Below, one piece after another: positions 38,990-59,185 of a DNA stretch of 64,000 bases (the stretch's first letter is position 1; each line of letters begins with the position of its first letter). The DNA comes from Pleurocapsa sp. FMAR1 (lineage in GTDB: Bacteria; Cyanobacteriota; Cyanobacteriia; Cyanobacteriales; Xenococcaceae). The notes beneath the pieces are model-generated. The model ran no database searches. It worked only from the letters and a program-made list of their open reading frames with translations, and was not told the origin of the DNA. The DNA is taken from NCBI RefSeq assembly GCF_963665995.1, contig NZ_OY762512.1, forward strand, positions 1,674,001 to 1,738,000. Direction: 5' to 3'. Both the position numbers and the translations under genes were made by a program.

Positions 38990-39002
38990 AGGGCTGCGCC
39001 CT

Positions 39003-39034
39003 AGCTATTAGCTGTTAGCTGTTAGCTGTTAGCT
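39003..39034. repeat. tandem heptamer repeat (TAGCTGT)
   Basis: About four copies of TAGCTGT or TAGCTAT in tandem. It is a short tandemly repeated repetitive sequence typical of cyanobacteria. The following AAAGCTAAAGGCTTT with a T run at about 39062-39081 may terminate the pirin transcript. Confidence 0.75.
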
Positions 39035-39108
39035 ATTTACTTAAGTAATCTTTAGAAGCTAAAAGCTAAAGGCTTTTTTTTGTAAACGCGGTTTATTTCA
39101 TCTCAGAT

Positions 39109-53667: not shown

Positions 53668-53757
53668 TTATTCTTTAGTTCGATAAGCTTGTTCTGGATG
53701 ATTTAATCTGTCAGGATATCGTAATTCTATAAGTTCTTCCTCTACCATCTTTTTTTA
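53668..53757 (-). pseudogene. in-frame 3' remainder of the AlbA-domain gene after a premature stop
   Basis: After the TAA at 53755-53757 the same frame continues for 28 sense codons to TAA at 53668, giving KKMVEEELIELRYPDRLNHP and then EQAYRTKE. This completes the C-terminal winged-helix expected after LNRTNSTLRTRF. The stop lies in a T7/A4 run (TTTTAAAAAAAG on the coding strand), so a point change or slippage could have created it. Confidence 0.7.
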
Positions 53758-55548
53758 AAATCTAGTTCTAAGTGTTGAATTAGTGCGATTAAGAATTACT
53801 TCCAATTGTTGCAAGGTTAAAAATCCTTCTCTGCACACTTCTAAAATCACTTCCCGCATTACATCTGCTGGAACTTTACCTTTATCTCTGACAGGTTTTG
53901 CGATCGCCTTAAGATTTTCTAAATGATCGGAGCTTTCTATCAAACGATCGGAGTTGACAACTAAATGATCGGAGCTTTCTATCAAATGATCGGAGTTGAC
54001 AACTAAATGATCGGAGCTTGACTGAGAAGTTGAAGTATTTTGCAGTAAAGAAAGAAAGTTTTTGCTTTCTGAAGTTGCTAAACTATATTGTGTTCCACGA
54101 CCGTGACCATATTTTTGCAACCAACAATTACTTACTAAATTTTTGAGACAGTCTCCAATGTCTCTGGAATGTTTTTGAGTAAAGCCTTGAATATCATTGT
54201 TACTAATTTCTCCAAAGTGATGTGCTAATACCAAAATAAGTCGATCTAATTCCTTGAGATAGCAATATTTATCTCCAACAAGTTCTCGCAATTCCTGTTC
54301 TATGTCTTCAGGAATAAAGCTAAGCATTGGCAGCGCAACATTTGTTATATTTAGGTCGAGTTTTTCAGATATTAACGGTGTAAACCATTGTTGTTCTCGC
54401 CAAGCTCGAAGAATTTTGGGAAATCCAGAACCTGCTTTATCGCTTAAACCAAGCATTTGGAACATTTTTTGCAGACTGGGATTGCGCGGATCACTTTCCC
54501 CTCCATCGTAAAGCGTTTCAATGGGAATCCTGAGACGACCTGGATTTGAAAATGAAAATCTGTCTTTGAATTTTAAAACTGTTATAGATCGGGTTGATAA
54601 GTGATCAGCATGAATCAATGTATTAACTAAAGCTTCTCTAAGTGCTTGATGAACGTGAGTTTCTTCTTTGCGAATAGCATCTCGGTCTAGTTTAAAAGGA
54701 ACATCTAGATCCTTAACTAATCTTCCGTAAATACGATAGTAAAAATTAAATATATTTCCTTCCCATTTACCATCAAGAGTAACTCTATGTGTCCAACGCT
54801 CTTCTGGGTCATTAGATAGTCTTTCCTGGTAGTCTAAATGATGGTGAGAGAAAGCGTCTAAAATACTTCGTTCATAACCAAACATTAGTAACCCAGCTAC
54901 AGTTAGCCCTGCTTTTCCTGTATTGCGATCGCGTTTCCATCCTCCTAGCTTAAGTAGCAAATCTTGGTCGTCTAGTGCTAACCAAGGATGATCTGGTTCT
55001 CTAGAGCTAAATCTCTGGCGATATGCTCTCATTGTTTCAGGATCGATATCGCTAAGATCGAATTTTTCTAAAATTTGAGAATCTTGTGGTTCACTACTAG
55101 CATCTCGCAACATTTGACGAACTTCGTCTTCTGTACAAGAATAATCTCCCTCATAATTGCGCTTATAAGTCCCTGTCATGGGATTGTTATTAATGTACAC
55201 GGGGCGCTGGGTACGAGTTGCTTTGGGAACTTTAATAATGATGAGAGATTTATCGTCAATTTTTTCGACGGTTACATCAGATTCATTGCAAATAGGAAAG
55301 CTGAGTTTTTGAGCATTATTATGGTTGTCCCAAAAATCTTTAAGTTGTTTTTTGGAATTGTTGACACCAGTAATTTGAAACTGACCTTTTTTCTCTGCCA
55401 CCCCAAGAACAATATACCCTCCTTCCGTATTGGCAAAAGAAGAAATAGTTTTCCAAGCGTCTTTTGGTACATTATTTTCAGCAGTTTTGCACTCAAAATC
55501 TTGGCTTTCACCTATATCGAGTTTTTCTAGGAGGATTTCTAAATCCAT
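53755..55548 (-). CDS. AlbA_2-type DNA-binding / ATP-binding regulator, C-terminally truncated
   Basis: 597 residues from ATG 55548 (MDLEILLEKLDIGESQDFE), chosen over an upstream start since the domain begins here. Residues about 10-130 form the Schlafen AlbA_2 domain (SFANTEGGYIVLGVAEKKG). The middle holds a RecG-like/HATPase_c_4 region (HQALREALVNTLIHADH and NPGRLRIP). Helix-turn-helix modules follow. A linker near residues 512-545 contains SSDHLVVNSDHLIE repeated twice, from a 42-bp tandem repeat. The frame ends early by about 28 residues. Confidence 0.85.
   Translation of the reverse strand: MDLEILLEKLDIGESQDFECKTAENNVPKDAWKTISSFANTEGGYIVLGVAEKKGQFQITGVNNSKKQLKDFWDNHNNAQKLSFPICNESDVTVEKIDDKSLIIIKVPKATRTQRPVYINNNPMTGTYKRNYEGDYSCTEDEVRQMLRDASSEPQDSQILEKFDLSDIDPETMRAYRQRFSSREPDHPWLALDDQDLLLKLGGWKRDRNTGKAGLTVAGLLMFGYERSILDAFSHHHLDYQERLSNDPEERWTHRVTLDGKWEGNIFNFYYRIYGRLVKDLDVPFKLDRDAIRKEETHVHQALREALVNTLIHADHLSTRSITVLKFKDRFSFSNPGRLRIPIETLYDGGESDPRNPSLQKMFQMLGLSDKAGSGFPKILRAWREQQWFTPLISEKLDLNITNVALPMLSFIPEDIEQELRELVGDKYCYLKELDRLILVLAHHFGEISNNDIQGFTQKHSRDIGDCLKNLVSNCWLQKYGHGRGTQYSLATSESKNFLSLLQNTSTSQSSSDHLVVNSDHLIESSDHLVVNSDRLIESSDHLENLKAIAKPVRDKGKVPADVMREVILEVCREGFLTLQQLEVILNRTNSTLRTRF
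53921..54019. repeat. 42-bp tandem repeat inside the AlbA-domain gene
   Basis: Two full 42-bp copies (53921-53962, 53963-54004) and a partial third. Each carries two GATCGGAG units. Fourteen codons per copy keep the frame and lengthen a linker, so copy number may vary between strains. Confidence 0.85.
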
Positions 55549-55664
55549 GTCGTGTATAACGGCGATCGTAATTAAACAATTATCAACAAGCAATTACTAT
55601 TTATAGCTCTTTATAGCATTTTAAATATTGTTTAGGCGATCGCTCTATCCACCAGTCAATAACC

Positions 55665-56227: not shown

Positions 56228-57094
56228 GCTTATTCATCCTTATCAGATAACGGTGCATTCAAATCTATGTTCATGTCACCGACTAAAGATTGAACTCGGA
56301 CTAAAGTTTCTGAAGTAATGGGTTGTATCTGTTGCGGATTTTGTTCTATGTCTTGCGCCAAAAAATCCAGAAACTTGTCTAATATTGGATCGTCTTCAGA
56401 GGTTTCATAGCGAGTAATAGTAACTGTTCCATCAGAGTTAATAATGTAGGCTATTTTATCTCGCTTATTCAAACCTAATGTTTTACGCACTATATCGGGA
56501 ACCTGATTGACTGACAAAACTTTCAAGAAATATTGTAGGAATAAGTTAAAACTTTGAACTCCAACTGATCTGCTCGTTTTTGATATTGCGATCGTGATGC
56601 CATTGCAGGTGAGGGATCTTGATTACTAGAGAAAGTCACGCAATGAAGTAAATTCCAACCATTAATGAGTGCAGCTTTGACCCAATCCCAACCAATCCTA
56701 AAATAGCTATTACCACGAAACCAATGAGTATCAACCCATCTTCGTTTGCCAATACGAACTACCTCAACACCTTGGGCACTAACGTAGAGAGTAGCCACAG
56801 ATAAGATAAACCACAAACGGGACAAAGCGCATACATCTCGAATCATCGAGCGTTGAACATTCCAACCACCAGATTGGTCATCTAAAAAATTCGCTTCGAT
56901 ATCAAAACGTAATCCATATTCAGCAAAGGTTTGTAGAGTAGTTTTTTCATTACTGACAATTGCCCATAGTTCGCCGTTAACGTTGTTGCGACCAAGAATC
57001 ACATGAACTTTGCCAGAAAATTCACCTTTGTGAATCTGTACGTTGTGTAAGCAAATTGCCTCTGCTAAATGAAAGTGAAAGTTTTTAGGTTGAC

Positions 57095-57165
57095 CAGGGC
57101 TTCGCCCTACACGATGCGAAGCATCGAAGTCGTCCGAAGGACGGACGATCTGGGCGATAGCCCTG
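57095..57165. repeat. 71-bp palindromic unit, copy 1
   Basis: CAGGGCT-TCGCCC at one end and GGGCGATAGCCCTG at the other, with inner hairpins CGATGCGAAGCATCG and CGTCCGAAGGACG. Confidence 0.9.
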
Positions 57166-57470
57166 TGGCGCGAAGTGTGAGGTGAACGCTCTCTGCGTTC
57201 CGACGTCTCCTTGGGAACGGCGACGGACAGAGAGTCCGTGTATGAAGTAAAACAGCTGCATGAAGTATGAAGTATGAGGTATGAAGTATGAAGTAAAACA
57301 GCTACTTCTTCCTTCGTATGAGGTACAAAAAATCTTTCTTCCTTCTTCCTTCAAACTTCTTCCTTCAAACTTCGTAAACAGCTACTTCCTCCTACATGCG
57401 GACAAGTCCTTTGTTCCACTATAGTTGCAAGCCCCGTCGTTCACGATCGCTCTTAGTTTGGTAGAGGTAC

Positions 57471-57541
57471 CAGGGCTTCGCCCTACACGATGCGAAGCAT
57501 CGAAGTCGTCCGAAGGACGGACGATCTGGGCGATAGCCCTG
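57471..57541. repeat. 71-bp palindromic unit, copy 2
   Basis: Same sequence as copy 1 by eye, preceded by GGTAC. Confidence 0.9.
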
Positions 57542-58247
57542 TGTATGAGGTATGAAGGACAAAAAATCCTTCCCGAATTCCGAATTCCTTCTTCCTTCAA
57601 ACTTCAAACTTCTTCCTTCGTATGAGGTACAAGCCCTCGAACAAACTTGAAACTTCGCGCCTTCATACTTCTGTCTTCAAACTTCTGTTGACACCAACTT
57701 CCACGCCAAATCCAGGTATTACTCTTAATTCGGAGACGATAATGCCATCCTAGTTGAGTTGTCAGCATGGTCATCAATTCGGTATGTATAAATCCTCGCT
57801 CCGCGAGTAAAATTACCTTAACTGATTCTCGTAGCCTAACTTGTGCCTGCTTAATCATCTCTCGATAATCGGTAACTGAAATACTAGCACTTTCATGGTT
57901 CATCACTCTCCACACCAACGGTAAAGCTCTCCCTCGATGAATAACCCAAAGCCGCACAAGGCAATACTCATCCCAGAACAGTGAAGTGTCTAATGCCAAA
58001 AATATTTTTGATTCTGACCAATCATCAAGTGCTGCTTTGACCAAGGACTTTCTGATTCGATGGACATTGATTCGAGGATTGTTTAGCCAACGCTGAATAC
58101 GTCTCTGTCTACCCCCAGCCAACTTCCCTCGACCAGGGATGTACATCGACCATTTTGTCAGGTTGACATTGCCCGTGTGTATTAAAGCAATTATCATCCA
58201 AATACAAGTTTGAAGATGACATAAATGTAACCAGTCAGTAGCTTGAC

Positions 58248-58318
58248 CAGGGCTTCGCCCTACACGATGCGAAGCATCGAAGTCGTCCGAAGGACGGACG
58301 ATCTGGGCGATAGCCCTG
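58248..58318. repeat. 71-bp palindromic unit, copy 3
   Basis: Same as copy 1, at the left end of nested element B. Confidence 0.9.
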
Positions 58319-58622
58319 TGGCGCGAAGTGTGAGGTGAACGCTCTCTGCGTTCCGACGTCTCCTTGGGAACGGCGACGGACAGAGAGTCCGTGTATGAAG
58401 TAAAACAGCTGCATGAAGTATGAAGTATGAGGTATGAAGTATGAAGTAAAACAGCTACTTCTTCCTTCGTATGAGGTACAAAAAATCTTTCTTCCTTCTT
58501 CCTTCAAACTTCTTCCTTCAAACTTCGTAAACAGCTACTTCCTCCTACATGCGGACAAGTCCTTTGTTCCACTATAGTTGCAAGCCCCGTCGTTCACGAT
58601 GAAAGAGGTTTGGTAGAGGTAC

Positions 58623-58693
58623 CAGGGCTTCGCCCTACACGATGCGAAGCATCGAAGTCGTCCGAAGGACGGACGATCTGGGCGATAGCCCTG
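58623..58693. repeat. 71-bp palindromic unit, copy 4
   Basis: Same as copy 2, also preceded by GGTAC, inside nested element B. Confidence 0.9.
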
Positions 58694-59185
58694 TGTATGA
58701 GGTATGAAGGCGCGAAGTATGAGGTGTGAGGTATGAGCTACAAAAAATCCTTCCCGAATTCCGAATTCCTTCAAACTTCGCGCCTTCAAACTTCTTCCTT
58801 CGTATGAGGTACAAGCCCTCGAACAAACTTGAAACTTCGCGCCTTCATACTTCTGTCTTCAAACTTCTATTGACTCATCCATTGATTCAAGGCATTGTAG
58901 AGACGGGAGTTTTGATTCACAGTATTCTGAAATTATGAGTGGTATCTAATCTCAGAGTGCTGACTCCCCTTGCTTTGTGTCAATCCCTCAACTCTTTACT
59001 GAATCTCTATTCTCAGGTTTTTCTCTTCATCTTTTGTCAGTCAACCAGATCGGGAACAGTAGTTTGATATCTATCTGTAAGAGTAGATTCTGCTTGCAAT
59101 ATTTCTGTCATAGTAGTTTTTTTCAGAACTAATTTAATTCTAGCTTATTGAGTAATGCAGTTGCATTGTCTGCAAGAAAACAGCT

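Follow-up and report, generated by a model that had tools for sequence, protein, structure and literature searches.

The transposase gene of an IS4-type insertion sequence (IS) in Pleurocapsa sp. FMAR1 is interrupted by two copies of a gene-less element (inserts A and B), which are very probably non-autonomous, guide-targeted members of the IS200/IS605 type, moved by TnpA acting in trans without making a target duplication and carried along as passengers when the interrupted IS multiplied. The window, that is the whole stretch analysed, comprises 64,000 nt (positions 1,674,001-1,738,000 of the forward strand of NZ_OY762512.1, assembly GCF_963665995.1), and its features are given in Table 1.

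Table 1. Features of the interrupted IS and its two inserts, in window positions.
Feature	Position	Strand	Remark
IS4-type insertion sequence with inserts A and B	56503..59048	-	1321 bp once inserts are removed; transposase on minus strand
9-bp target duplication of host IS, left copy ATCGGGAAC	56494..56502	.	
9-bp target duplication of host IS, right copy ATCGGGAAC	59049..59057	.	
Transposase gene, 3' part (C-terminal)	56523..57094	-	
Transposase gene, middle part	57693..58247	-	100% identical across 10 full-length copies in own genome
Transposase gene, 5' part	58875..58920	-	coordinates mapped from L097 frame
Insert A, left cleavage site C_L / target, TTGAC (recurring part TGAC)	57090..57094	+	
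Insert A, 598 bp, putative non-autonomous IS200/IS605-type element, long mosaic form	57095..57692	+	
Insert A, left guide G_L, CAAG, 5' of hairpin IPL (3' arm altered here)	57428..57431	+	guide test; model match 57424-57486
Insert A, extra segment splitting right hairpin IPR and guide	57471..57629	+	edges approximate; from alignment to L029 and L030 (short forms)
Insert A, right end / cleavage site C_R, TTGAC	57688..57692	+	
Insert B, left cleavage site C_L / target, TTGAC	58243..58247	+	
Insert B, 627 bp, second copy of element	58248..58874	+	
Insert B, left guide G_L, CAAG	58581..58584	+	model match 58577-58638
Insert B, right end / cleavage site C_R, TTGAC	58870..58874	+	

As the first-pass annotation had observed, TTGAC stands at all four borders, and the two inserts have a 300-nt stretch in common at 100% identity plus further blocks in the same order. 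Joining the three pieces of the IS, whose copies were compared by blastn and whose terminal inverted repeats lie at 56503-56519 and 59032-59048, with one TTGAC per site yields 1321 bp with a single open frame. The same IS without inserts is present in two relatives (L097 in genome G006 and L098 in genome G004), each exactly 1321 bp long, 88% and 81% identical to the host IS respectively and uninserted at both sites. Each holds a 390-aa open transposase (DDE_Tnp_1 match in the L097 product, Pfam, E 3.5e-6), so the 390 codons first read after removal of the inserts are correct. The uninterrupted site A reads CTGAC in L097 and TTGAC in L098, and site B reads TTGAC in both, from which TGAC is the constant part of the site. 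The element borders drawn earlier stand; the extents (57095-57687 and 58248-58869) were too short, as the right TTGAC is the element's own end. The window has four matches to the left-end motif where 0.00 would be expected, and chance occurrence is therefore unlikely. A covariance model of the core, described below, still matches both inserts (41.2 and 22.5 bits); with the left hairpin changed and the right hairpin split, both may be immobile now.

The genome of Pleurocapsa sp. FMAR1 contains 15 full right ends of the host IS and one fragment. Both sites are filled in 11 of the 15, and the other four carry one hybrid insert and are missing the transposase middle. The 555-bp middle segment is invariant in the 10 full-length copies, and the inserts vary, chiefly in repeat units. 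An intact copy of the host IS transposase was not found in this genome: 26 matches at 84-87% identity span just residues 15-204, 38-204 or 201-390, two further fragments show 67-69% identity, and identity falls to 38-40% in the next relatives. Seven of the 15 copies, including the single-hybrid-insert copies L012 and L013, have perfect 9-10 bp duplications of their own. Inserts in all 15 copies, the failure to find an intact transposase and these seven duplications together indicate that the IS moved when it was already interrupted by the inserts, taking its passengers along, its transposase presumably having come from elsewhere, be it a lost intact copy or transient excision. Frames of 669-675 aa had been listed across insert A, and a fused open frame was considered and rejected: in each of the seven loci that were translated directly the inserts contain stops, a fused protein is therefore not expected, and a frame of 300 aa was not found in L007, L011 or L004. 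Some IS copies share flanks in direct or inverted orientation (G000:C1 3748095-3750669, 3757827-3760402, 509914-512488, 3821294-3823899, 104155-106729 and 5426876-5429451), those at 104155 and 5426876 having the same 14 bases on both sides, which suggests recombination or duplication between copies.

Outside the IS, the genome holds stand-alone short forms of the element, all between TTGAC (L029, 258 bp; L030, 204 bp; L313, 195 bp). These copies at other TTGAC sites bear out the earlier proposal of a mobile, target-specific element, which, having no coding capacity, would depend on a helper. Measured against L029 and L030 the IS inserts are mosaics, with the 3' arm of the left hairpin altered in most and the right hairpin split by an extra segment, and in this genome the long mosaic form was seen only inside the host IS (40 of 95 first-look candidates scored; left motif searched at up to three mismatches). 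Recombination or gene conversion among repeats, with a single insertion only, would explain why the same long form occupies both sites and occurs nowhere else in the genome, and four IS copies are indeed A/B recombinants without the middle segment. Both points are nevertheless exact TGAC sites with natural empty counterparts, and conversion does not carry sequence into unrelated sites, which makes this explanation unlikely; conversion can have homogenised the copies later. Of the two independent hits proposed at first, insertion at two exact sites thus stands, but the two arrivals may not have been fully independent, given that both are the same long mosaic form, seen in this genome only in the IS.

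The core of L030 matches short elements in related genomes, whose usual layout runs from the site through a small hairpin (often GGGCTTCGCCC), an arm, the guide and hairpin IPL, on to hairpin IPR, whose loop holds a further guide, and through a complementary arm to the second site. The arms between cleavage sites and guides are long, complementary and often built of tandem heptamers. The covariance model (6 cores, 17 pairs, 5 of them with changes in both partners, a number reached in 0 of 500 shuffles) found the core at least 96 times, in 18 of 60 genomes; the own genome is among the 18 and has eight of the matches. This is a lower bound, as at most 90 candidates per genome were scored under strict filters. 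Sixty stretches around model matches were fetched for reading. In the six aligned cores the hairpins are conserved and covary, but in most elements the distance from the left cleavage site to the hairpins and guides is 44 to about 400 nt, compared with about 15 nt for the guide in IS608, the exception being L295 with a guide at about 20 nt. With this non-canonical spacing the element would work like the IS200/IS605 family and yet be a variant of it. A pattern scan of genome contigs returned 19 stretches, four of which were read: among the three from Pleurocapsa, L155 and L169 proved to be elements in which both ends are present, L160 is cut, and in the one from Tildeniella no element was seen. 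A plasmid collection searched with 87 bases of the core gave no match.

The arms themselves are predicted to pair. In the single-stranded DNA fold the left arm pairs with the right arm in 34 of 40 elements (none in 6), and in 23 of the 40 at most 2 of 60 shuffles were as high; the folded set consists of elements other than L029, L030 and the window inserts. This prediction supports, without proving, a role of the arms in bringing both cleavage sites together. Heptamer arrays in general were considered as element arms and rejected: a census of the window and 20 stretches of 20 kb (464 kb) found 27 regions with arrays whose period is 7, 14 or 21, of which six lie inside IS copies and 21 elsewhere without such anatomy (judged by eye), and the core model run over 400 kb of sampled stretches matched once, inside an IS copy. 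At window 38990-39090 a GGGCTGCGCCC hairpin is followed by a TAGCTGT heptamer array after an apparent stop codon, with a partly complementary arm, and the core model has no match there. L182 (G000:C1 about 1029.06 kb) is heptamer-armed and has no guide core, with TTGAC on the right and TTGGAC on the left, and is perhaps a core-less derivative.

An IPL-type hairpin with CAAG also occurs at the left ends of IS605-type elements, and the left core is related to such ends. In L214 (genome G276) TTGAC is followed by 16 nt and then AAGCCCCGTCGTTCTACGACGGCTT, with Y1_Tnp (E 6.7e-38) and tnpB genes alongside. L214 shares TTGAC, the guide CAAG and a CCCCGTCG-type left hairpin with the present elements; it differs in having tnpA and tnpB, a GGCTT 3' arm in the hairpin and a right end that by eye does not match and looks like the TCAA/GAAT type. 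Another tnpA locus, L330 in G018, has TTTATC and GTTTAAAACCCCG at its left end, like element L281 of G019, and was the only match below 0.05 (E 0.013; another at 0.097) when the core model was run over 29 of the 30 Y1 loci retrieved from seven relatives; a scan of Y1 loci for the guide-plus-hairpin pattern found nothing. L330 and L281 are the closest to a helper pair among the loci compared. A look for an autonomous relative with the same ends had been suggested: the left core is there, in L214 and L330, but among autonomous elements the right end was not found. The genomes with these elements hold many tnpA genes. The own genome has seven Y1_Tnp matches, and the flanks inspected beside them show no left end that matches.

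REP and REPIN elements are short and are not known to have a fixed left flank. They are folded, non-autonomous and tied to Y1 enzymes (in part PMC6006769), and a REP/REPIN-like element moved by TnpA_REP (RAYT) would agree with hairpins that carry 5' guides and with own-genome Y1-type genes that include longer frames of 177 and 186 aa. This alternative is very unlikely, as REP guides are GT[AG]G in the classes described in that part of the source (PMC6006769) and the guides here are CAAG, AAAG, GAAG and others, and as exact borders with a fixed 5' flank are the IS200/IS605 pattern. An element acting at the RNA level, either an intron or the omegaRNA source of a TnpB nuclease homing to TTGAC, is highly improbable, even though exact removal restores the reading frame and TTGAC resembles the TAM of ISDra2, TTGAT (PMC8612924, in the portion available). 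Rfam over 56900-58950 at E up to 1 gave five matches, all to microRNA families far below their gathering scores; stand-alone copies exist outside the host IS; and the conserved hairpin matches IS605 left ends rather than tnpB 3' ends, none being seen in the own-genome tnpB 3' ends inspected. The omegaRNA reading had been prompted by the CAAGCCCCGTCG stretch and was rejected when that stretch proved to sit at IS605 left ends.

IS608 pairs TTAC with AAAG and TCAA with GAAT (PMC5934647, available portion), from which we derived a three-position rule, where guide base 1 pairs with site base 2, base 2 with base 1 and base 4 with base 4, and which reproduces both IS608 pairs. Guides and borders were entered in a pairing table by eye. 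The rule holds in full, at each of its three positions, for 49 of 58 pairs on the left and for 46 of 60 on the right (shuffle means 16.5 and 13.3), and none of 20000 guide/site shuffles reached the observed left or right value, although shuffling at the level of elements overstates independence, since copies within a family are related. For distinct guide/site pairs the signal is weaker: 5 of 13 fit on the left (565 of 20000 shuffles as high) and 5 of 14 on the right (320 of 20000). The fitting combinations are CAAG-TGAC, AAAG-TTAC, AATG-TTAC, GAAG-TCAC and TAAG-TATC on the left, and CAAG-TGAC, AAAG-TTAC, AAAT-TTAA and CAAT or CAGT with TGAA on the right. All nine left ends of the IS605 type fit (39 of 20000 shuffles as high), these being assigned by Pfam (L214, tnpA and tnpB), a tnpB match (L170), adjoining frames only (L197, as L220; L216, L217, L218) or eye (L196, L198), and including L195 (as L215), which has no such gene nearby.

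The window family, with 25 elements tabulated, uses CAAG with TGAC on both sides and has a TGAC left flank in 23 of the 25, against 27 of 58 across the whole table. The G010 family (17 copies) combines AATG-TTAC on the left with AAAG-TTAC on the right; its left ends read TTAC in all 16 readable cases (fifth base A in 8, T in 7 and C in 1) and its right ends TTTAC in 17 of 17. Four of these left ends had been entered as unreadable, and three were later read as TTTAC and fit the rule; at the remaining one, L300, CTTAAAAAGC follows ACAT, which we take as a chance match. The G049 family has GAAG-TCAC on the left and AAAT-TTAA on the right, the TATC family (G018, G005, G019) TAAG-TATC on the left and AAAA with TATT on the right, and a second G049 family (three elements) TAAG-TATC on the left and CAAT, CAGT or AAGT with TGAA on the right. 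Nine left and 14 right pairs break the rule, among them three G049 elements in which GAAG stands next to TGAC or AGAC, and the right side of the TATC family, which fails in seven of seven with AAAA next to TATT or GATT; taking the site one base earlier, as TTAT, would make that side fit. Eight of the 43 census loci with an unreadable border or hairpin are outside the table (L258, L261, L276, L283, L284, L285, L287, L291), L285 and L287 having TTGAC at the right end; loci L224-L253 were read for borders only when met under other numbers, and likewise outside it are the inserts carried by the 15 IS copies in the own genome. In G010 (contigs C7 and C3, L296-L312) the 17 TTAC-targeted sister copies have left arms of very variable length, and that genome has 27 Y1_Tnp matches.

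These families dispose of the idea that TTGAC is a 5-bp target duplication, as first proposed. The left side keeps only TGAC (ATGAC and GTGAC occur too) while the right end stays TTGAC, and the left and right tetranucleotides are unequal in three sister families (TCAC/TTAA, TATC/TATT and TATC/TGAA), which excludes a target duplication there. The absence of a 5-bp duplication elsewhere, which the first-pass annotation would have counted against insertion, thus applies in substance, yet insertion is still backed by the empty sites and the guide/site agreement. A conventional MITE, mobilized by a DDE transposase with a 5-bp duplication and a preference for TTGAC, would give the identical repeats at both window sites, but is hardly credible given these two observations and the lack of terminal inverted repeats at the insert borders.

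With an IS200/IS605-type element, the two insertions could have come about as follows. The single-stranded element would fold so that its complementary arms join the ends and expose the two hairpins, and a Y1 (HUH) transposase TnpA from another locus would bind both. At the left junction TGAC would pair with the CAAG that stands beside the left hairpin, and at the right end TGAC would pair with the CAAG that the right hairpin has in its loop. TnpA would then cut 3' of both TGACs and close a single-stranded circle, from which the left guide would pick a new TGAC. No duplication would be made, the apparent repeat consisting of the target TGAC and the TGAC in which the element itself ends. Such an event, occurring twice, or once and followed by local copying, would have broken the transposase of one IS4-type element, and the broken IS would then have multiplied with its passengers, using transposase in trans.

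Palindrome-associated transposable elements (PATEs) of Haloquadratum walsbyi are non-autonomous, have IS605-like palindromes and make no duplication (PMC3119063, in its accessible parts), so that the earlier statement that no element of such composition had been described was too strong. From the agreement of guides and sites, the IS605-like left core and the TTGAC of L214 with the same guide, the present elements are very probably PATE-like, non-autonomous IS200/IS605 relatives, presumably moved by Y1 TnpA in trans. As in the PATEs covered by those parts of the source, they are short, have no transposase, terminal inverted repeats or target duplication, possess IS605-related palindromes and a fixed 5' targeting oligonucleotide, and occur in many copies often struck by other repeats (PMC3119063). 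Unlike in that account, the palindromes are central rather than near-terminal, long complementary and often heptameric arms separate the cleavage sites from the guides, the right guide is in a loop, several guide/site combinations coexist in one superfamily and the hosts are cyanobacteria. With IS608 and ISDra2 the elements share a fixed 4-5 nt target as left flank, a guide 5' of the left hairpin (PMC5934647, PMC8612924, available portions) and the pairing rule, which was tested against IS608 sequences only (PMC5934647); they differ in having neither tnpA nor tnpB, and the window family uses the same site at both ends. Among the titles and abstract openings that literature searches listed, no cyanobacterial element of such architecture was seen, and the splint-and-loop architecture is a variant on known PATE-like, guide-targeted, helper-dependent elements.

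The elements form a natural set without genes, comprising four main families and a smaller one, in which guides and targets mostly agree, and they offer natural guide/target pairs for testing as well as an unusual architecture of arms and a loop-borne guide. They also provide a case of a passenger riding a carrier whose transposase is broken in every copy found in the own genome. TnpB has brought the IS200/IS605 family to prominence. Altering the guide of IS608 can give it a new target (PMC5934647, in the part available). Tentatively, and with somewhat less than an even chance, the present elements may represent a branch of the IS200/IS605 type in which the short fixed spacing was replaced by a long arm splint with the right guide displayed from a loop, and in which guide and target changed together repeatedly (TGAC, TTAC, TCAC, TATC), that is, a natural retargeting of a DNA-guided transposon.

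Several other repeats were seen along the way. L176 and L177 (G000:C1 5318515 and 5202454) carry TACATGCGGACAAGTCCTTTGTTGT, largely common to the present elements, inside an IS630-like transposase and apparently in-frame (by eye), near what we take to be its conserved PP...PE(I)NPIE motif. Palindrome blocks of the long inserts stand alone, apparently partly within genes, in L178 (740.9 kb), L179 (557.6 kb) and L181 (2857.9 kb), and resemble CGATGC..GCATCG, GTCGTC..GACGAC and CTGGGC..GCCCTG; such modular palindromes may spread on their own. An element of roughly 200 bp with inverted ends GGCGTTGGTAA / TTACCAACGCC is present in L183 around 1519-1579 (G000:C1 about 96.5 kb), with an 8-bp repeat ATGAGATT, and in L180 (455.6 kb), and by eye interrupts an apparent group II intron reverse transcriptase gene. 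Within the window, a 42-bp tandem repeat of 2.4 copies (53919-54019) lies in a 612-aa frame (53755-55593).
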